The translations under genes were made by a program, and so were the position numbers. A model generated the notes under the pieces. It ran no database searches. It saw nothing but the letters and a program-made list of their open reading frames with translations, and was not told where the DNA came from. Positions 9,115-16,208 of a DNA stretch of 64,000 nucleotides are shown piece after piece. Positions within the stretch are counted from its first letter, which is position 1. Each line of letters begins with the position of its first letter. Source of the DNA: Neisseria sp. Marseille-Q5346 (GTDB lineage: Bacteria; Pseudomonadota; Gammaproteobacteria; Burkholderiales; Neisseriaceae); contig NZ_OX336253.1 in the NCBI RefSeq assembly GCF_946902045.1, positions 496,001 to 560,000 of the forward strand. Direction: 5' to 3'.

Positions 9115-9768
9115 TTATACCTGATTTAACTGCGCCAGTTTCCAAGACACCAGCTCTGCCGCTTCTTCCGGCGAGTTGGCCTTCAAGCCTGCTTCGCCAA
9201 AATACGAAATTTTAGGCAAACCACACAAAAACTTATCGACATCTTGCGCCGTCAAAAAGCGGCCGTGCAAATCGAATCCGACATTTAAAGCACGCCCTTT
9301 GATTTCCGCCACCCTGTCATGCAAATGGCCGTACAAGTGATACCAGCCCTGATAGCAGCCGTCCCATTCCTGAATCGGATAGTGAAAGAGAACCAGCGTA
9401 TTCTTAATTTCCGGCAATTTGAGTTTCAAATACGGCCGTATGGACGACAGCAGCGGATGGCCGTCATGCTTGGTTTGGCTGCGGAAAAAATCGGTATGCT
9501 GCCGAATCACATGATCATGATTGCCGTAAATCAAGTGATGTTGCCCGTTTAAACGCGACAAAACGCGCTCTATCTGCTTATGGTCGTGGGCAAAGGAAAA
9601 ATCGCCCAAGTTGTACACCGTATCTTCAGGCGTAACGGTTTCATTCCATGTCTGAATTAAAAATTCATCCATCTGCTCCACGTTATCGAACGGTCGAAAT
9701 TGTGGGCAAAATTTGGCGATGTTTTTATGTGAGAAATGTAGGTCGGATGTGAAGTAGATTTTGCTCAT
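9115..9768 (-). CDS. Calcineurin-like metallophosphoesterase
   Basis: 217 residues with the complete metal-binding set: SDLHFSHKN (D-x-H), NLGDFSF (GD), YGNHDHV (GNHD), LFHYPI (H) and GHLHDR (GHxH). The family includes small stand-alone phosphoesterases, and a related domain is the phosphatase of the clostridial RNA repair enzyme Pnkp. Here it lies one gene away from a kinase-RNA ligase that lacks a phosphatase domain, which is suggestive but not proof of a link. The natural substrate is unknown. Confidence 0.88.
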   Translation of the reverse strand: MSKIYFTSDLHFSHKNIAKFCPQFRPFDNVEQMDEFLIQTWNETVTPEDTVYNLGDFSFAHDHKQIERVLSRLNGQHHLIYGNHDHVIRQHTDFFRSQTKHDGHPLLSSIRPYLKLKLPEIKNTLVLFHYPIQEWDGCYQGWYHLYGHLHDRVAEIKGRALNVGFDLHGRFLTAQDVDKFLCGLPKISYFGEAGLKANSPEEAAELVSWKLAQLNQV

Positions 9769-10329: not shown

Positions 10330-11808
10330 TTACAACTGTCTCAAAAATGCTTGGATAAACGCGATCTTATCCAATTCCGGCATAGCGTTGAACGCTTCCT
10401 GATGCTCGTGGATGTAGTCGATCAAAGGATAAAATTCTTCATCAACATGGCGTTTGTCCAGTTTGCGGCCGATATTGCCTTCGTTGCTTCGTCCTAAAAA
10501 CTTGGAAATCAGGTAATACGGCGATTTGAGTTTGAACAGCATTTCGTCGTTTTGTGCATCAAATACCATAAAGCCTTCGTGTTCCACATTTTTCAGACGG
10601 CCTTTCAGCTCTCCGAACGTGATATTTTTCAGCATTTTGGGACGGCGGATGCCGTATTGTTTGCCGATTTCGTCCAATTCCGCTTCAGAAAATTGACGGC
10701 CGATCGCCACATCAATGCAGCCGATTAAGGTTTCGCCCAATTCTTCACGGATGATGTGTACGTCTTTCGCATCTGTGATTTCGAACAAAAAAGTATGGTT
10801 CGGATATGCGCGGAACAGGGTTTCGTATTGTGCGCAGTGTGCGGCGGTCATATCGGCAAACGCGCTATCAAGCGAACCGGTAGTCGAATACAGCACTTTG
10901 CCGTCAAACGTTGCGCCATGGGACGGATGGTCGTCTGAAAGCGAGACGAAAGTGCAGCAACCGAGGAAGCCGTTTACTTTCACCACCGCGTCCACCAATC
11001 TCTCGTCACTGATTCGGATCGGATAGCGGCTGCCTTTGGCAATACGTTCCGAATAATTGAACACTTTTTTAAACGGACGCACGATGATTCGATTATGCGC
11101 GTCGATAATCAAGCCGCGCATTTCCAGCAAAGCATCATCAAAGCGGTTGTTATAGAACACGCTGCGGGCGTATTTCAACACGCGCAACTCAGGATAACGC
11201 TTGGATGCTTTGGCAGTAAAGTTACGGCTGCTGTGTTGCAGATAGTGATCGGTCACAAAGGTTTGCTGCGCCTCATCAAACACCAGCGGCTTATGCTCGA
11301 TAGCCTGCATCTGTTCGATTTTTTCTAACTGTTCCGCATTTGCCGGCTGCACGGCCTCGATATGGATTTCGTTTGCCACTCGGTTTTGGTTCAACTTGAT
11401 ATACGCCGCCAACACGTCATGCTCTTTTACACCGTGCAGGTTGGGATAGAAATTGTGCAGTCGATAAACTTCTGTTTCAAAACCGCTTTTCTCCGCCTGA
11501 TCCAATAAATGACGGCAACGCGAAGCTTTTGGGTTGGTATTGGAATTAATGATCAAAATATTTCGATTCGGATTTTGGCGTCCAAGTCTCAAAGTTTCAG
11601 TCATCAAAGCATTACCGCGTTTTTGCGCCTTATCCACCGCCTCGCCCGACCAACGATATTCACCGTATTCATCGGTAATGAACAAATCGTTTTCAATACG
11701 GACAACTTCCGCATCCTGATACTGCGCTTTAAATTCCGCGGCTTTTTGTTCGGCAAACGTCGATTTTCCCGAACCTTGATGACCGCGGATTAAGATAAAT
11801 TTTTGCAT
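10330..11808 (-). CDS. Polynucleotide kinase-RNA ligase fusion (T4 Rnl1-like ligase)
   Basis: 492 residues in two parts. The N-terminus is a P-loop kinase (GHQGSGKST, residues 9-17) of the type that phosphorylates RNA 5' ends. Residues from about 185 resemble T4 RNA ligase 1: LLEMRGLIID, RPFKKVFNYSE, the nucleotidyl-transfer motif KVNG (Lys277, motif I KxxG), YSTTGSL, FLFEITDA (motif III), EGFMVF (motif IV, 411-416) and FKLKS (motif V, 425-429). T4 Rnl1 seals broken tRNA anticodon loops after end-healing by Pnkp. No phosphatase/cyclic phosphodiesterase domain is present. It is 90 bp downstream of rsr, separated by a DUS hairpin, with AAGGAAAC before the ATG. Confidence 0.85.
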   Translation of the reverse strand: MQKFILIRGHQGSGKSTFAEQKAAEFKAQYQDAEVVRIENDLFITDEYGEYRWSGEAVDKAQKRGNALMTETLRLGRQNPNRNILIINSNTNPKASRCRHLLDQAEKSGFETEVYRLHNFYPNLHGVKEHDVLAAYIKLNQNRVANEIHIEAVQPANAEQLEKIEQMQAIEHKPLVFDEAQQTFVTDHYLQHSSRNFTAKASKRYPELRVLKYARSVFYNNRFDDALLEMRGLIIDAHNRIIVRPFKKVFNYSERIAKGSRYPIRISDERLVDAVVKVNGFLGCCTFVSLSDDHPSHGATFDGKVLYSTTGSLDSAFADMTAAHCAQYETLFRAYPNHTFLFEITDAKDVHIIREELGETLIGCIDVAIGRQFSEAELDEIGKQYGIRRPKMLKNITFGELKGRLKNVEHEGFMVFDAQNDEMLFKLKSPYYLISKFLGRSNEGNIGRKLDKRHVDEEFYPLIDYIHEHQEAFNAMPELDKIAFIQAFLRQL

Positions 11809-11849
11809 TTTGTTTCCTTATTCTTTTTCTCAGCTTACCCTGAATAAAT

Positions 11850-11893
11850 AGGCCGTCTGAAAAATATTTCTACCCTTTTTTTCAGACGGCCTT
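11850..11893 (-). terminator. DUS hairpin between rsr and the kinase-ligase gene
   Basis: Opposed DUS copies flank a short spacer. The T-run on the minus strand is poor (CCTATTTATT), so read-through into the ligase gene is plausible. Confidence 0.6.
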
Positions 11894-11897
11894 AGCT

Positions 11898-13472
11898 TCA
11901 GTTCACAGCTGCCAACGGCGTTTTCTCAATCTCTTCTACCCAGAAATCTGTACCCATGCCTCGTTCGGCAAAGGAACCGATCAGGGAGAATACTTGGTCG
12001 GAGAAGCCGCCGATGTTCAAGATATCGTGACGGTTTCGTGCTTGAGCCTTGGTGTAGGGCTGGATATCCAGACAAACGAGTTTGGCTTCTGGGCAACGGC
12101 GTTTCAGAATATCCCACTCTTTCATCAGGCTGGTTGTGGTACCCCATCCTTGGCTGTCATCTGCCCAACTTTCGTTGTCTGATACGATGACGACCAAATC
12201 CACGTCGGCTTTTTCACGGTTCAACATGGCGAGCGGTGCGCTGCATGCCGTTCCGCCGCCGCCGACATTAGCGAGTTTTTCGGCGTTGGTCATGATGCTG
12301 TCGCGCGGGTTGAGCTTCACGTTTACCGTGATTTGTTCAAACGGTATCACGCGGGCTTGCGGATTGGTACGCAACATGGCGGCGGACACGAGCGCGGCAA
12401 TATCGATGCAGCGGGTTTTGGTGGTCGCGCTGCCGCGATAGCCGGTAGCCGGGCTGTGCATGGAGCCGGAGACGTCCGGACAAACCATGACTTTGCCTTG
12501 GATTACCGGTACGTTTTGTACGGCGGTTTCCATCGCATCTTGCAGGGCTTCACGGATTTCAGACGGCATTTGATTAGATGTTGCCTGATACGCGGTCAGC
12601 AATTGGTAAGGCAGGACGCGGGCGCGGGCAATGGCGGTTTCGTCACGCAGTTTTTCTGCCACCATTTTGATGTTTTTGCTTTTCGCAAATACTTCGTGGC
12701 GCAGGAAAGTGTTCAGGTTTTGACGAACCTGCTGCCATGAACCGTTACAGGCAATTTGCGCCCAGTCGCCGCTGTTCAAGTCTAAAGCAGTAAGCATTTG
12801 GAAAGGAACGTTGGGCAATTCGCCTTCTCGGCTTTGTTTGTAGTCTTCAAAAGCGCGGGTAATGGGCGGCAATGCTTCGCGGTCGTACGGTTTACCAATC
12901 AGCCATGCAAACCATGCGGCACGCCATGCTTCACGCGGTTTGGGATGCACCATTTTGACCACGTCCGCCAGCGACGGGGCGTTGCCGATAGCGGCGTTCA
13001 ACAATTGTTTTTCGGTGGCGGTCAAAAGCCAAGTCTGCATCAGCTTTTTCGGACGGTTGCCGAAAGATTTTCTGCCGACTGCGCCGCTACGGATAATTTG
13101 CGCGAAGTTGCGCAACATTTTACCGTTGTCCACTACTTGGTCGAATACACGGGCAAGCATGTTCACGTCTTTTTGCGCCAATACGGCAAGCAACAGCGCA
13201 GGCATATCTTTCATAAAACCTTTTTGACGGGCATATACGGCAGTTTTGGCGATAAACTCGGCATCCAGGCTTTCTGCCAACTTCAATACTTGGTCAAGCT
13301 GACTTTGGGCATCGGCATAGTAGGTATTGTTCAGACAACCGGTAGCGGCAAGCTGTGCCAGCTGTTGTTTAGGGGTCAGCGTGTAGGCGATGCCGCCAGC
13401 TTCATTATGGGTATCGGTTTTAGTAAAACGGTTTTTAATCGATTGAAACAAGGTAGTATTAGCCATTTTCAT
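11898..13472 (-). CDS. rsr: Ro60-like TROVE protein Rsr, Y RNA-binding ring
   Basis: 524 residues (522 if the second ATG at 13466 is used; both have weak ribosome sites). Residues up to about 320 form the helical TROVE repeat domain, including the typical HPKPREAW near 176-183. The C-terminus is a von Willebrand A domain with the MIDAS motif DVSGS at 333-337 and SDNESW further on. Bacterial Rsr binds Y RNAs on its outer surface and single-stranded RNA ends in its pore. In Deinococcus it is tethered to PNPase by Y RNA. In other bacteria rsr lies in RtcR-controlled RNA repair operons, as here. The Y RNA array lies immediately upstream on the same strand. Confidence 0.95.
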   Translation of the reverse strand: MKMANTTLFQSIKNRFTKTDTHNEAGGIAYTLTPKQQLAQLAATGCLNNTYYADAQSQLDQVLKLAESLDAEFIAKTAVYARQKGFMKDMPALLLAVLAQKDVNMLARVFDQVVDNGKMLRNFAQIIRSGAVGRKSFGNRPKKLMQTWLLTATEKQLLNAAIGNAPSLADVVKMVHPKPREAWRAAWFAWLIGKPYDREALPPITRAFEDYKQSREGELPNVPFQMLTALDLNSGDWAQIACNGSWQQVRQNLNTFLRHEVFAKSKNIKMVAEKLRDETAIARARVLPYQLLTAYQATSNQMPSEIREALQDAMETAVQNVPVIQGKVMVCPDVSGSMHSPATGYRGSATTKTRCIDIAALVSAAMLRTNPQARVIPFEQITVNVKLNPRDSIMTNAEKLANVGGGGTACSAPLAMLNREKADVDLVVIVSDNESWADDSQGWGTTTSLMKEWDILKRRCPEAKLVCLDIQPYTKAQARNRHDILNIGGFSDQVFSLIGSFAERGMGTDFWVEEIEKTPLAAVN

Positions 13473-13493
13473 TTTCTTTCATATTGTTGGTTT

Positions 13494-13537
13494 GAGGCCG
13501 CCTGAACTTGTTTTAGCTTTGTTTTTCAGACGGCCTT
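13494..13537 (-). terminator. DUS hairpin between the Y RNA array and rsr
   Basis: AAGGCCGTCTGAA pairs with TTCAGGCGGCCTC on the minus strand. It may attenuate transcription so that Y RNAs exceed rsr mRNA, or protect the 3' end of the last Y RNA. Confidence 0.6.
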
Positions 13538-13545
13538 GAATGGGT

Positions 13546-13626
13546 GGCAGTGTGGCGGCTAAAGATGAAGAGAAGCGTTTTTAACTGAAAGCTAATGTAT
13601 TCTCTTCCGGGCATCCGCCTACTGCC
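13546..13626 (-). ncRNA. Predicted Y RNA 7 (simple hairpin type)
   Basis: On the minus strand GGCAGT pairs with ACTGCC at the ends, GGCGG with CCGCC, and GAAGAGAA with TTCTCTTC. The variant Ro motif GGCGGATG lies between the stems. The terminal loop contains a small TTAGCT/AGTTAA hairpin. It is close in sequence to Y RNA 4, suggesting duplication. Confidence 0.65.
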
Positions 13627-13629
13627 GTA

Positions 13630-13700
13630 GGGCGACCAGTTTAATTAGGATCATTCAGGTTTGTAGCAAGAAAGGAATGTAATCCTAATGGCATTCGCCC
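13630..13700 (-). ncRNA. Predicted Y RNA 6 (simple hairpin type)
   Basis: Ends GGGCGA/TCGCCC pair. The Ro motif GGCGAATG matches the published bacterial consensus G-N-C-G-A-A-N-G. The inner stem is ATTAGGAT plus CATTC pairing with GAATG plus ATCCTAAT, and the loop is about 18 nt. No tRNA-like part. Confidence 0.7.
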
Positions 13701-13706
13701 ATAAGG

Positions 13707-13855
13707 GGTGGCACATTGGGCAACAAAGAGTGGAGAAATTTTTACGCGCTCTATCCACTGAGCTACTCTGCCATAGTTGGCGGCAGAGACGGGACTCGAA
13801 CCCGCGACCTCGCGCTTAGCAGGCTGTAATTCCTTCGGCATTTGCCGTTTGCACC
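13707..13855 (-). ncRNA. Predicted Y RNA 5 with circularly permuted tRNA mimic (YrlA-like)
   Basis: About 149 nt. The outer stem is GGTG/CACC, the Ro motif variant is GGCAAATG, and the inner stem is AGGAATT/AATTTCT. The far end reads as a tRNA cut at the anticodon and joined at the acceptor: T-arm CGGGTTCGAGTCCCG, acceptor strand CTCTGCC, then G-CCA-ACTAT, then the perfectly complementary acceptor strand GGCAGAG, then the D-arm GCTCAGTGGATAGAGC. The acceptor stem is thus closed by a loop that includes discriminator-like G plus CCA. This matches the known layout of bacterial YrlA RNAs, where the Y stem replaces the anticodon arm. A normal tRNA order is absent. Confidence 0.85.
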
Positions 13856-13874
13856 AAAAACAGTTTTTATATCT

Positions 13875-13898
13875 GCCTGCCTGAATATTTCAGACGGC
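13875..13898 (-). repeat. Degenerate DUS hairpin between Y RNAs 4 and 5
   Basis: GCCGTCTGAA pairs with TTCAGGCAGGC with one bulged base. There is no T-run. It may mark an RNA processing boundary. Confidence 0.5.
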
Positions 13899-13980
13899 GG
13901 CAACGTAGCGGATAAACATGAAGAGAAACGGTTTTAACGTAAAAGGTTAATGTACCTTCTCCGAGCATCCGCCTGCTGCC
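13899..13980 (-). ncRNA. Predicted Y RNA 4 (simple hairpin type)
   Basis: GGCAGC pairs with GTTGCC (one GU) at the ends, GCGGAT with ATCCGC, and GAGAA with TTCTC. The variant motif is GGCGGATG and the loop carries a TTAAC/GTTAA mini-hairpin. The sequence is very like Y RNA 7. Confidence 0.65.
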
Positions 13981-13988
13981 GTAAAAGT

Positions 13989-14137
13989 AATATGGCACGC
14001 AACAAGTTTTTAAGGGAAACATGCCTTTACTCTACCAACTGAGCTACTCTGCTATTTTGGATAACAGAGACAGGACTCGAACCTGTGACACAAGGGTATC
14101 CATGTTGTAGTTTCCCTAGGCATTTGCCTGCCATATT
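13989..14137 (-). ncRNA. Predicted Y RNA 3 with circularly permuted tRNA mimic (YrlA-like)
   Basis: 149 nt. The outer stem AATATGGCA/TGCCATATT is 9 bp, the Ro motif variant is GGCAAATG, and the inner stem is AGGGAAAC/GTTTCCCT. The effector end has the T-arm CACAGGTTCGAGTCCTGT, acceptor strand CTCTGTT, a loop that begins CCAAA, acceptor strand AGCAGAG (one GU), then the D-arm GCTCAGTTGGTAGAGT. The T-loop TTCGAGT and the D-loop GG needed for the elbow contact are both present. The parts are in permuted order, as in Y RNA 5. Confidence 0.85.
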
Positions 14138-14147
14138 GGAAAAGGGT

Positions 14148-14238
14148 GGGCGACTAAATAAACAAGACGTTCAACGTCTATCAGACGAGACAGGATTCGA
14201 ACCTGTTAATCCAAATGTAGTCTTGTTGGCATTCGCCC
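14148..14238 (-). ncRNA. Predicted Y RNA 2 with T-arm and reduced acceptor hairpin
   Basis: 91 nt. Ends GGGCGA/TCGCCC pair, the Ro motif GGCGAATG is a full consensus match, and the inner stem is AACAAGAC/GTCTTGTT. The effector has a canonical T-arm ACAGGTTCGAATCCTGT and a short CGTCT/AGACG hairpin in place of the acceptor stem. No D-arm is visible, so it is a partial tRNA mimic. It begins directly after the end of Y RNA 1. Confidence 0.75.
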
Positions 14239-14318
14239 TGTAACCACACAGCAACTAAATTTACGGAAAATTTTTCTCCGGTAACTGTATTTCCCGAAGC
14301 ATCTGCTGTATCGTTACA
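14239..14318 (-). ncRNA. Predicted Y RNA 1 (first RNA after the sigma-54 promoter)
   Basis: 80 nt. A 15-bp closing stem joins TGTAACGATACAGCA with TGCTGTGTGGTTACA (one mismatch, one GU). The diverged motif AGCAGATG follows, and the apical hairpin is TTAC-GGAGAA/TTTTCC-GTAA with one bulged C. Its 5' end coincides with the transcription start expected about 12 nt past the -12 element. It has no tRNA-like part. Confidence 0.75.
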
Positions 14319-14326
14319 TTCACAAC

Positions 14327-14345
14327 GCAGCCAACAGCGTGCCAA
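14327..14345 (-). promoter_or_regulatory. Sigma-54 promoter of the Y RNA-rsr-ligase unit
   Basis: Minus-strand TTGGCACGCTGTTGGCTGC has the -24 GG and -12 GC exactly ten bases apart and matches the consensus TGGCACG-N4-TTGC with one change. It lies 235 bp from the divergent RtcR start and about 12 nt before the first predicted Y RNA. Confidence 0.85.
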
Positions 14346-14383
14346 GAATAAAATTTTTATAAAAATAATTTTTAATTGATTGA

Positions 14384-14400
14384 ATATAAAGAGAATATAT
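14384..14400. promoter_or_regulatory. Candidate RtcR upstream activator site, copy 1
   Basis: ATATAAAGAGAATATAT. A near-identical copy lies 92 bp away. Both are in the AT-rich gap on the upstream side of the sigma-54 promoter. The role is inferred from position and repetition. Confidence 0.4.
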
Positions 14401-14475
14401 TTTAAAGTAGCTTTTATCGGCAAGAAGCGTAGAATAGTAAAAAATATATTTATAGATAGTTATATAGAAAATAAG

Positions 14476-14491
14476 ATATAAGAGAATATAT
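14476..14491. promoter_or_regulatory. Candidate RtcR upstream activator site, copy 2
   Basis: ATATAAGAGAATATAT, copy 1 minus one A. It lies about 130 bp upstream of the sigma-54 promoter, a normal enhancer distance, and also just in front of the short frame that precedes rtcR. Confidence 0.4.
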
Positions 14492-14576
14492 GATGCGATT
14501 CGATGATTTGGACAAACGCCTGCGGTTAAGTCAACGGCAAATTTGTATTGGAAAAAATAATTTAAAGGCCGTCTGA
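14490..14576 (+). CDS. Possible 28-residue leader peptide or gene remnant upstream of rtcR
   Basis: ATG at 14490, with AGAG upstream, encodes MMRFDDLDKRLRLSQRQIC and ends LKAV-stop, where the stop codon is supplied by a DUS (AAGGCCGTCTGA). The rtcR ATG follows three bases later and has no clear ribosome site of its own, so translation of rtcR could be coupled to this frame. It could also be the stump of a gene truncated by DUS insertion. Confidence 0.35.
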   Translation: MMRFDDLDKRLRLSQRQICIGKNNLKAV

Positions 14577-14579
14577 AAC

Positions 14580-16208
14580 ATGAATACTCATCCTAAAAAA
14601 CAAGTCGCCGTCAGCTTTCTCGGTACGGTATTGGACAGTGGTTTCGGTCAAGGGCGTTGGCAGAAATGGCGGCCGAATGTCGCCATGAATCAGCGTCAAG
14701 ATTTTCATCTCGACCGCATGGAACTGTTTTATGCGGAGAAATACCGCGAGTTGGCGGATCATGTAAAAGCCGATATTCAGCAGGTGTCGCCGCACACAGT
14801 CGTCAATCTCGTGCCTATGGAGCTGGCAAACCCGTGGGATTTCTCCGAGGTTTATACCAAACTGCATGATTGGGCGGCGAGCTATCCATTTGATACAGAA
14901 GAAGAAACCTATCTCACCCACATCACCACGGGTACGCACGTTGCGCAAATCTGCCTGTTTTTATTGGTGGAATCACGTCAAATCCCCGGCGTACTGTTAC
15001 AAACCGCTCCACCCAAAAACCAAAGACGCAGTATGGAGGACGGCAATGTCGGCAGTTATGAAATCATCGATTTAGACTTGGCTCGTTACGACGTACTGGC
15101 CGAACGCCTTGCTGCCGTACGCGATGACGCAGTGCGCTACCTGAAAAGCGGCATCTCAACCCAAAACGCTGCCTTCAACCGCATGATTGCCGAAATCGAA
15201 CAGGTCGCACTCAATTCCCCTTCCCCCATTCTGCTTTCCGGCCCGACAGGCGCAGGCAAATCCATGCTGGCACGCAGGATTTTTGAATTGAAAAAAGCGC
15301 GCCATCTGATTAAAGGCACATTTGTCGATGTAAACTGCGCCACCCTTCGCGGCGACGGCGCAGCATCTGCCCTGTTCGGCCACAAAAAAGGCGCCTTTAC
15401 CGGCGCGGCGGAAAAACGTGAAGGCTACCTAAAAACTGCCGACGGCGGCGTATTGTTTTTAGATGAAATTGGAGAATTGGGCTTAGACGAACAAGCCATG
15501 TTACTCAAAGCCATTGAAGAAAAACACTTTTATCCCGTCGGCAGCGACAGCGAAGTCGAAAGCGACTTCCAACTCATCGCCGGCACCAACCGCGACCTAC
15601 GCCACGAAATTCGCGCCGGACGCTTCCGCGAAGACCTGTTCGCCCGCATCAATATCTGGAATTATCCACTGCCCGCACTCGCCAACCGCCGCGAAGACAT
15701 CGAGCCCAACGTCGAACACCAGCTCGCCCTAGCCTCGCAAGAACTCGGCCGCACTACCCGCTTCAACAAAGAAGCCCTGGCCGCCTACCTCGACTTTGCC
15801 CTCTCCAACCAAGCACCATGGCGCGGCAATTTCCGCGACCTCGCCGCCAGCATCATGCGCCTTGCCACACTTGCACCTCAAGGCAGGATACAGGTAGAAC
15901 AAGTCCAAGCCGAAATCGAACGCCTCAAATGGTTATGGTCGGAAGAACCCTTTTCAGACGGCCTCCTACATAACAGGCCGTCTGAAAAAACACAAGACTA
16001 CCCCGATAAAGTCGATTGGGACACATTGGATTTGTTCGACAAACTACAACTGCAACACGTCATCGACGAATGCCGCAAACATCCCAATATGGCCGCTGCC
16101 GGCCGTGCATTGTTCAACGTCTCCCGAACAGAAAGGGCAAAAGTCAATGACAGCGACCGATTGAGAAAGTATTTACAGCGATTCGGATTAGAATGGGGAG
16201 ATATTTAA
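14580..16208 (+). CDS. rtcR: Sigma-54 activator with CARF sensor, regulator of RNA repair
   Basis: 542 residues. The N-terminus SFLGTVLDSGFGQGRWQKWRP is the RtcR signature and begins a CARF domain (about 9-185) with the ligand-loop motif THITTGTH at 113-120. The AAA+ domain has Walker A GPTGAGKS (221-228), the sigma-54 contact loop GAFTGA (271-276) and Walker B VLFLDE (291-296). The C-terminus is a helix-turn-helix region near 495-540. RtcR normally activates rtcBA when its CARF domain detects RNA damage; here it faces the Y RNA-rsr-ligase unit. A DUS inverted pair lies inside the coding region (residues about 458-470) between the AAA+ and DNA-binding domains. Confidence 0.95.
   Translation: MNTHPKKQVAVSFLGTVLDSGFGQGRWQKWRPNVAMNQRQDFHLDRMELFYAEKYRELADHVKADIQQVSPHTVVNLVPMELANPWDFSEVYTKLHDWAASYPFDTEEETYLTHITTGTHVAQICLFLLVESRQIPGVLLQTAPPKNQRRSMEDGNVGSYEIIDLDLARYDVLAERLAAVRDDAVRYLKSGISTQNAAFNRMIAEIEQVALNSPSPILLSGPTGAGKSMLARRIFELKKARHLIKGTFVDVNCATLRGDGAASALFGHKKGAFTGAAEKREGYLKTADGGVLFLDEIGELGLDEQAMLLKAIEEKHFYPVGSDSEVESDFQLIAGTNRDLRHEIRAGRFREDLFARINIWNYPLPALANRREDIEPNVEHQLALASQELGRTTRFNKEALAAYLDFALSNQAPWRGNFRDLAASIMRLATLAPQGRIQVEQVQAEIERLKWLWSEEPFSDGLLHNRPSEKTQDYPDKVDWDTLDLFDKLQLQHVIDECRKHPNMAAAGRALFNVSRTERAKVNDSDRLRKYLQRFGLEWGDI
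15952..15990. repeat. DUS inverted pair inside the rtcR coding sequence
   Basis: TTTTCAGACGGCC and GGCCGTCTGAAAA are read in frame as FSDGLLHNRPSEK, forming a linker insert before the DNA-binding domain. Confidence 0.9.

Follow-up and report, generated by a model that had tools for sequence, protein, structure and literature searches.

What does the damage sensor RtcR control at a locus that carries neither RtcB nor RtcA? The question is raised by a 64,000 nt stretch of the chromosome of Neisseria sp. Marseille-Q5346 (G000:C1:496001-560000, in the following the window; G000 is its genome, other G numbers denote genomes of relatives, and L numbers denote loci). An rtcR gene, which begins at 14580 on the plus strand, is divergent from a minus-strand cassette that consists, in this order, of a sigma-54 promoter-like site, seven Y-RNA-like units (14318 to 13546), the Ro60-like gene rsr and a gene for a kinase-ligase fusion, followed by rpiB in the opposite direction and by a gene for a calcineurin-type metallophosphoesterase (MPE). 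The cassette is not a member of the rsr-yrlBA-rtcBA operons, because it contains no RtcB or RtcA. We consider it likely that this island is an RtcR-switched system for the sensing and repair of tRNA breaks, comprising the Y RNAs, Rsr, the kinase-Rnl1 ligase and MPE, which would supply 3'-end healing, with broken tRNA as the presumed client.

An earlier note, made from the sequence of this DNA alone, had described RtcR, the outward-facing sigma-54 site, seven Y-RNA-like units, the Ro60-like gene and the kinase-Rnl1 ligase, and all of them were recovered where it had placed them. The MPE gene (9115-9768), the ends of a deleted thg1-like gene (14453-14577) and an RtcB-PrfH operon elsewhere in the genome are additions. 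The features, apart from the single Y RNA units, are:

14580..16208, plus strand: RtcR, sigma-54 activator with a CARF domain (NF038308 800 bits, cut-off 650; PADLOC RtcR--CARF_AAA_HTH, E 7e-248)
14345 to 14329, minus strand: sigma-54 promoter-like site TTGGCACGCTGTTGGCT (GG-N10-GC, TGGCAC; pattern score 15/17, next best in the region 10)
11898..13472, minus strand: Rsr, Ro60-like protein with MIDAS-type motifs (Pfam vWA_Ro60 and TROVE over cut-off)
10330..11808, minus strand: kinase-Rnl1 RNA ligase fusion, 492 aa (Pfam and structural matches)
9115..9768, minus strand: MPE, calcineurin-type metallophosphoesterase, 217 aa, predicted 3'-end healing enzyme (fold, metal-ligand motifs, linkage)
14453..14577 (14453-14525 and 14534-14577), plus strand: two ends of a deleted thg1-like gene (blastn against the intact L037 gene)

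RtcR and its promoter-like site

RtcR was recognized over its full length at the level of an equivalog, with an N-terminal CARF domain (PF06956, 253 bits), a Sigma54_activat domain (172 bits) and the GAFTGA motif at residue 271. From the spacing of the GG-N10-GC element, transcription of the cassette is predicted to start at base 14318, and the closing stem of Y1 opens with this same base. Over 12 loci, the offset between the predicted start and the first Y stem was 0 in seven, all with one homologous Y1 type, and 3, 7 and 8 nt in three further loci. A promoter scan bore out the RtcR/sigma-54 arrangement of the earlier note: TTGGCAC or a near-match precedes every scored RtcR-linked array or ligase, and in these 18 cases the best sigma-54-like site reached 13 to 17 of 17, the runner-up in the same regions 9 to 13. 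Three loci without RtcR nearby (L074, L075, L077) scored 10 to 12. For the ligase of G032 the score was 10 within the 129 bp tested, and TGGCATTGTCCTTGCT is present about 1.1 kb upstream. That sigma-54 control might be impossible for want of RpoN was ruled out by Sigma54_DBD matches over cut-off in frames of 460 to 487 aa in all 11 RtcR genomes, i.e., the window genome and the other ten.

A dyad search for an RtcR operator returned mostly AT-rich palindromes, and scans for sigma-70 promoters and terminators gave results at shuffle level. As a separate observation, 7 of 19 promoters (0.61 expected) contain an IHF-like motif, [AT]ATCA[AG]N4TT[AG], at a constant distance of 41-42 bp in front of the sigma-54 site, namely those of Alysiella and six Moraxella loci (L067, L068, L069, L070, L071, L073, L080). 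The motif is absent from the ten Neisseria and two Cardiobacteriaceae promoters scanned, and no claim is made for the window.

Predicted Y RNAs and the Ro60-like protein

The seven array units are predicted Y RNAs, called on covariance models of our own and on the stem and the tRNA-like domain in relatives. Model R2 was built from 19 long units and model R3 from 12 short units of other Neisseria species, Alysiella and Cardiobacteriaceae, and both training sets exclude the window and its close relatives G014, G025 and G037. All units are on the minus strand:

14239..14318, minus strand: Y1, first and weakest unit, closing stem (R3 E 1.4e-4, in the 1.1 kb array search only)
14148..14238 (R2 bounds 14146-14245), minus strand: Y2, YrlA-like, T-arm (R3 E 2.9e-12; R2 E 1.2e-9; Rfam YrlA E 2.9e-7, below gathering)
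13991..14136, minus strand: Y3, YrlA-like, tRNA-like domain (R2 E 7.2e-29; Rfam YrlA E 3.2e-12, below gathering)
13895..13974, minus strand: Y4, short Y RNA unit (R3 E 1.3e-4 over the window)
13712..13854, minus strand: Y5, YrlA-like, tRNA-like domain with T-arm and D-arm (R2 E 7.9e-37; Rfam YrlA E 2.8e-12, below gathering)
13628..13704, minus strand: Y6, short Y RNA unit (R2 E 3.5e-6; R3 E 2.4e-15)
13546..13627, minus strand: Y7, short Y RNA unit (R2 E 1.2e-7; R3 E 2.5e-9)

The number of seven units, as given in the earlier note, was upheld by two approaches. A motif-plus-stem search found seven units on the minus strand of the array, none on its plus strand and one in the rest of the window, and chance was ruled out by 300 shuffles with a mean of 0.017 and a maximum of 1. 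Over the whole window, R2 matched five units; R3 also gave five, each with an E value of at most 1.3e-4, and in addition a stray match (E 3.1). Applied unfiltered to the 1.1 kb array, R3 recovered every one of the seven, with E values between 4e-17 and 0.013; the six matches ranked below them are weak, at E 0.92 and up. The closing stem of Y1 is long, and units of its type are present in 7 of 8 rtcR-linked Neisseria arrays scanned. Within Y3 and Y5, T-arm, acceptor-like stem and D-arm occur in YrlA order, and Y2 contains the T-arm. The Rfam model for YrlA (RF02553) matched Y5, Y3 and Y2 with 58.0, 57.8 and 40.7 bits, under its 69-bit gathering score. No array unit reaches an Rfam gathering score; YrlB gave one non-significant match (E 1.8), and nine further rows belong to unrelated families.

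Among the units of the long type, two-sided changes that keep pairing were seen at 30 of 36 pairs and 93.9% of cells pair, a result matched by none of 500 shuffles on any of five measures; sliding the partners lowered pairing to below 48%. For the short units, RNAalifold proposed a local hairpin (model R1), in whose place the author set a two-helix structure. Under this structure 90.2% of cells pair and 10 of 14 pairs covary. On four of five measures it exceeded all 500 shuffles, and on the fifth, further pair types, 10 of the 500 did as well. A structure derived from an alignment is biased in its own favor, and relatedness can inflate the shuffle controls of both types.

Among relatives, the motif-plus-stem pattern detected 2 to 8 units in 14 of 15 scanned regions, with none in the decayed locus of G036; the count misses degenerate units, misplaces some ends and leaves out four Moraxella regions, and a scan of the promoter regions of these four for the Y 5' motif was negative. 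Among the matches listed, R2 also matched all 46 genomes of the Neisseria comparison sample at 45 bits or less; these were rejected as Y RNAs, because five fetched places in five genomes hold tandem tRNA genes, and the count was therefore limited to matches above 84 bits, in the following high-scoring Y RNAs. Inside their Y arrays, several relatives carry small conserved open reading frames of 113 and 175 aa that match no Pfam family above its cut-off (L037:5861-6739, L060:625-966).

Rsr matches vWA_Ro60 (PF25045, 64.9 bits, cut-off 27.7, E 1.1e-17) and TROVE (PF05731, 35.9 bits, cut-off 23, E 6.7e-9), the best stretch of the latter spanning part of the model, and it contains the MIDAS-type motifs DVSGS at 333, GGGTA at 405 and VSDNES at 430. 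With 81.4 bits it remains far below the 900 required for the NCBI Rsr equivalog NF041674, and by its sequence it is a divergent Ro60-like protein outside this narrow model. Rsr and high-scoring Y RNAs occur in the same 10 of 46 Neisseria genomes.

The predicted healing and sealing enzymes and their distribution

The fusion protein matches RNA_lig_T4_1 (PF09511, 32.4 bits, cut-off 28.3) and AAA_33 (29 bits, cut-off 27). Its ligase half has the Rnl1 fold, with T4 Rnl1 and fungal Trl1 as best structural matches, in line with the earlier note; a sequence search of the PDB for ligase relatives at E 0.01 retrieved none. Its kinase half has a Pnk-type P-loop fold and is structurally near C. thermocellum Pnk. 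The structural matches cover residues 1-155 and 178-479, and no separate phosphatase domain was recognized. The earlier note had assigned both healing and sealing to this enzyme. The 5' kinase and the ligase agree with that, but the fusion is unlikely to be a complete healer because no 3'-end healing domain is recognizable. Kinase genes that stand alone and share 47-50% identity with the kinase half were seen elsewhere in four Neisseriaceae genomes (L123, L124, L125, L126), and in L038 (G024) the ligase gene lies in two overlapping frames with a stop and is possibly broken in that strain.

MPE is predicted to be the better candidate for 3'-end healing, i.e., removal of the 2',3'-cyclic phosphate or 3'-phosphate. 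Calcineurin-type phosphoesterases are characterized by the metal-ligand set DxH, GD, GNHD, H and GHxH, and the phosphatase of C. thermocellum Pnkp is of this type. MPE has both the metal-ligand set and the fold. Its gene lies within 2 kb of the ligase gene in 19 of 20 named loci from Neisseriaceae, Moraxella, Cardiobacteriaceae, Pasteurellaceae and Bacteriovoracales, and in L081 the order is kinase, MPE, ligase. G019, G013 and G027 have a second paralogue of MPE, of about 61% identity, next to an uncharacterized gene (L088, L089, L090), and in two Moraxella loci an uncharacterized gene of about 300 aa without a Pfam family over cut-off follows MPE (L068:12180-13109, L080:12272-13162).

The search of other Neisseria that the earlier note had suggested found the cassette in 11 of 46 genomes, and RtcR, ligase and MPE have an identical distribution over them. 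At the family level, RtcR is present in 16 of 18 ligase genomes (of 83), with G046 and G057 (kinase-only match) as exceptions. Eight genomes with RtcR and no ligase all belong to one genus, a sister genus of the family, and in the three loci viewed there (L114, L115, L116) there is a sigma-54 site with an RtcB gene opposite RtcR, the RtcB gene being identified by tblastn at each of these loci (in L114 the RtcR-facing unit contains a Pfam RtcB and a Band_7 gene). The window RtcR shares 77% identity with its counterpart in the gammaproteobacterium Cardiobacterium hominis and 51% with the one in the RtcB-linked sister genus, as if sensor and output travelled together. In G045, RtcR is about 40 kb away from the ligase-MPE pair and the Y-rsr unit is located elsewhere, and each unit has its own sigma-54 site. 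RtcR, sigma-54-like site, ligase and MPE are all present in 6 of 7 Moraxella loci, and no Rsr was found within the available stretches of the seven. We read the kinase-ligase and MPE as the core, a healing and sealing pathway like that of T4 Pnkp/Rnl1; Ro60 and Y RNAs were not seen beside the Moraxella ligases.

The statement of the earlier note that the kinase-ligase stands in place of RtcBA is true at the locus and for RtcA, which is absent from all 46 Neisseria genomes, but the window genome does have an RtcB elsewhere. An RtcB-PrfH operon (TIGR03073, TIGR03072; L091:6438-8212) lies at about 2.156 Mb of the same chromosome, 1.6 Mb from the cassette, and is the only place with an RtcB match. 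It was rejected as an obvious RtcR target, as the pattern found no sigma-54 site upstream. RtcB (PF01139) occurs in 10 of 11 RtcR genomes versus 4 of 35 others (one partial); the PrfH partner was checked in the window genome only. RtcB2-PrfH protects E. coli against colicin E3, but not against the tRNA-cutting colicins E5 and D (PMC9223846), and tRNA repair might therefore be left to a system such as the cassette. If the proposed role of the cassette is right, this suggests that rRNA repair (RtcB-PrfH) and tRNA repair (cassette) are in the hands of separate systems in one cell.

Between the array and rtcR, the window retains 73 nt around the 5' end and 44 nt around the 3' end of a thg1-like gene (64/73 and 36/44 identical to L037), 8 bp apart, and G014, G025 and G037 are similar; the alignment points to a past internal deletion. 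Thg1-like genes (PF04446) are present in 4 of 46 genomes, all among the 11 (G019, G024, G027, G032), and the gene stands between Y array and rtcR in L037, L040 and C. hominis. In L040 (4009-9387), a gene for a RecQ-UvrD double helicase of 1792 aa, with DpdF as best PADLOC match, lies between the thg1-like gene and rtcR, and such a gene was partly read in L065, too.

Proposed mechanism, alternatives and known systems

In Salmonella, 5' tRNA halves that carry a terminal 2',3'-cyclic phosphate are ligands of the CARF domain of RtcR and make RtcR oligomerize, and RtcA promotes induction by making cyclic phosphate ends (PMC7790460). From the observed genes, motifs, predicted folds, promoter-like site, linkage and distribution we infer the ligand, the substrates, co-expression and the roles of Rsr and Y RNAs as follows. 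A metal-independent nuclease would cleave tRNA, leaving a 2',3'-cyclic phosphate on the 5' halves and a 5'-OH on the 3' halves, and such 5' halves would bind the CARF domain of the window RtcR and oligomerize it as in Salmonella. Together with RpoN, RtcR would then fire the promoter at 14345-14329, and the transcript would begin with Y1 at 14318. MPE would turn the cyclic phosphate into 2',3'-OH and the kinase would place a phosphate on the 5'-OH, and the two ends would then be joined by the Rnl1 domain with ATP. The removal of cyclic phosphate by MPE would also destroy the ligand of RtcR, so that the response would terminate itself. Rsr and the Y RNAs, three of them with tRNA-like parts, might sort broken or misfolded tRNA to decay or hold nucleases off. 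The complete version, an RtcR rewired from RtcB sealing to kinase, phosphoesterase and Rnl1, self-extinguishing via MPE and firing a tRNA-mimicking Y array from the first base of the promoter, is tentative and somewhat less likely than not.

Several observations weigh against a tRNA repair island of this kind. Activation of RtcR in E. coli depends on RtcA and RtcB, and tRNA fragments failed to activate it in vitro (PMC9650030); because RtcA is absent and RtcB is linked to PrfH, the window RtcR must differ from the E. coli rule, unless that RtcB stands in. In two Cardiobacteriaceae the start-to-stem offsets are 31 and 132 nt, their best sigma-54 site scores 14/17, and the margin over the next best is only 1 in C. 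hominis. Hairpins of paired uptake sequences at 13473-13545 (between Y7 and rsr) and 11809-11897 (between rsr and ligase) may be terminators or set expression ratios, and with these hairpins and the oppositely oriented rpiB gene a single transcript from 14318 to 9115 is not assured. The enzyme pair is also found without nearby RtcR (L074 to L079, in the stretch available), and the decayed locus of G036 (L044) has intact RtcR and MPE with ligase fragments only and no Rsr or high-scoring Y RNA. Kinship among the genomes means that identical gene sets may stem from few events. For MPE, no Pfam family was over cut-off (best Metallophos_2, E 0.037), its nearest structures are 1xm7, whose function is not known, and LpxH, the oppositely oriented rpiB separates it from the ligase in the window (an arrangement of 9 of the 11 Neisseria genomes), and it was not found in the 19.9 kb fetched of G048 (6 kb downstream of the ligase, the rest of the genome not searched), which has ligase, RtcR and Rsr.

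The nearest structures, the interposed rpiB and the negative result for the G048 stretch would fit a bystander that acts on a small molecule or another nucleotide, while an unrelated housekeeping enzyme heals the 3' ends and the ligase still repairs tRNA. We regard this as quite improbable, as the identical distribution, the close linkage over five groups and the position between kinase and ligase in L081 argue against it. The island might instead serve mainly RNA decay or quality control, with Rsr and Y RNAs tethering PNPase to damaged structured RNA and the kinase-ligase in a minor or separate role. Deinococcus Rsr is indeed tethered to PNPase by a Y RNA for the decay of structured RNA (PMC7790460), the promoter-proximal part of the cassette consists of the seven Y RNAs and Rsr, and Rsr and high-scoring Y RNAs share their genomes. 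However, RtcR follows the ligase, and the Moraxella loci without Rsr, six of which have all other components of the switch and the enzyme pair, as well as the missing Y motif in four of their promoter regions, make a role mainly in decay quite improbable.

A third possibility differs from tRNA repair under general RNA stress in its trigger only: the cassette could be an immunity system against toxins or phage-triggered anticodon nucleases. The enrichment of RtcB in RtcR genomes, together with the protection from colicin E3 by RtcB2-PrfH (PMC9223846), and the patchy distribution in Neisseria would be in agreement with it. On the other hand, PADLOC gave a strong match among the four window proteins for RtcR alone (the cassette was not searched for toxin or phage genes), and we consider this trigger rather unlikely. 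The preferred reading remains RtcR-switched tRNA repair by kinase-ligase and MPE.

If this is true, sensor and repair chemistry of RNA repair operons are separable modules, and within one bacterial family RtcR faces either RtcB or a kinase-ligase with phosphoesterase. MPE would be a concrete candidate for the 3'-end healing enzyme, and if it removes cyclic phosphate the signal is removed as well, so that loss of MPE is expected to prolong induction. The locus would also offer an RtcR that must work without RtcA, contrary to the E. coli rule, and natural arrays of up to eight Y RNAs for asking what bacterial Y RNAs do.

The claim that gene set and array size are undescribed held in part: no paper on the gene set was found by title or abstract start in the literature searched, whose coverage falls short of relevant 2014 and 2016 surveys, but large Y arrays are present in relatives as well. 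As described in PMC7790460, the rsr-yrlBA-rtcBA locus of Salmonella resembles the window in that RtcR is divergent from a sigma-54 promoter leading rsr, Y RNAs and RNA repair enzymes; in contrast, the window cassette has kinase-Rnl1 and MPE in place of RtcA and RtcB, and its Y RNAs precede rsr and number seven instead of two. With phage T4 Pnkp and Rnl1 it shares the folds of 5' kinase and Rnl1 ligase and the chemistry of tRNA break repair, 3'-end healing being predicted for the window; however, here the kinase is fused to the ligase, the healing enzyme would be separate and calcineurin-type, not of the T4 type, and the system is chromosomal and RtcR-linked. Pnkp/Hen1 and Pnkp1-Rnl-Hen1 are likewise bacterial sets of kinase, phosphatase and ligase, acting on ribotoxin-cleaved RNA, and their phosphatases belong to two superfamilies (PMC4411300), but the window ligase is Rnl1-type, and RtcR, Rsr and Y RNAs are added. 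RtcB2-PrfH (PMC9223846) has its counterpart in the window chromosome, but at a separate locus. Thg1-like, kinase and ligase genes also occur together in the bacterial Thg1 neighborhoods with polynucleotide kinase and RNA ligase (PMC2904730); the organism list of that study includes C. hominis, and the locus of the latter (L066) contains thg1-like, kinase-ligase, MPE, Rsr and RtcR genes; in the window thg1 is deleted, and the terms RtcR, Y RNA, TROVE, Ro60, calcineurin and Rnl occur 0 times in the main text of that paper. RtcR, Ro60-Y RNA pairs, kinase-ligase-Thg1 neighborhoods (PMC2904730) and Pnkp systems (PMC4411300) are already known, and what is apparently new is a known damage sensor that seems to be wired to another repair chemistry.

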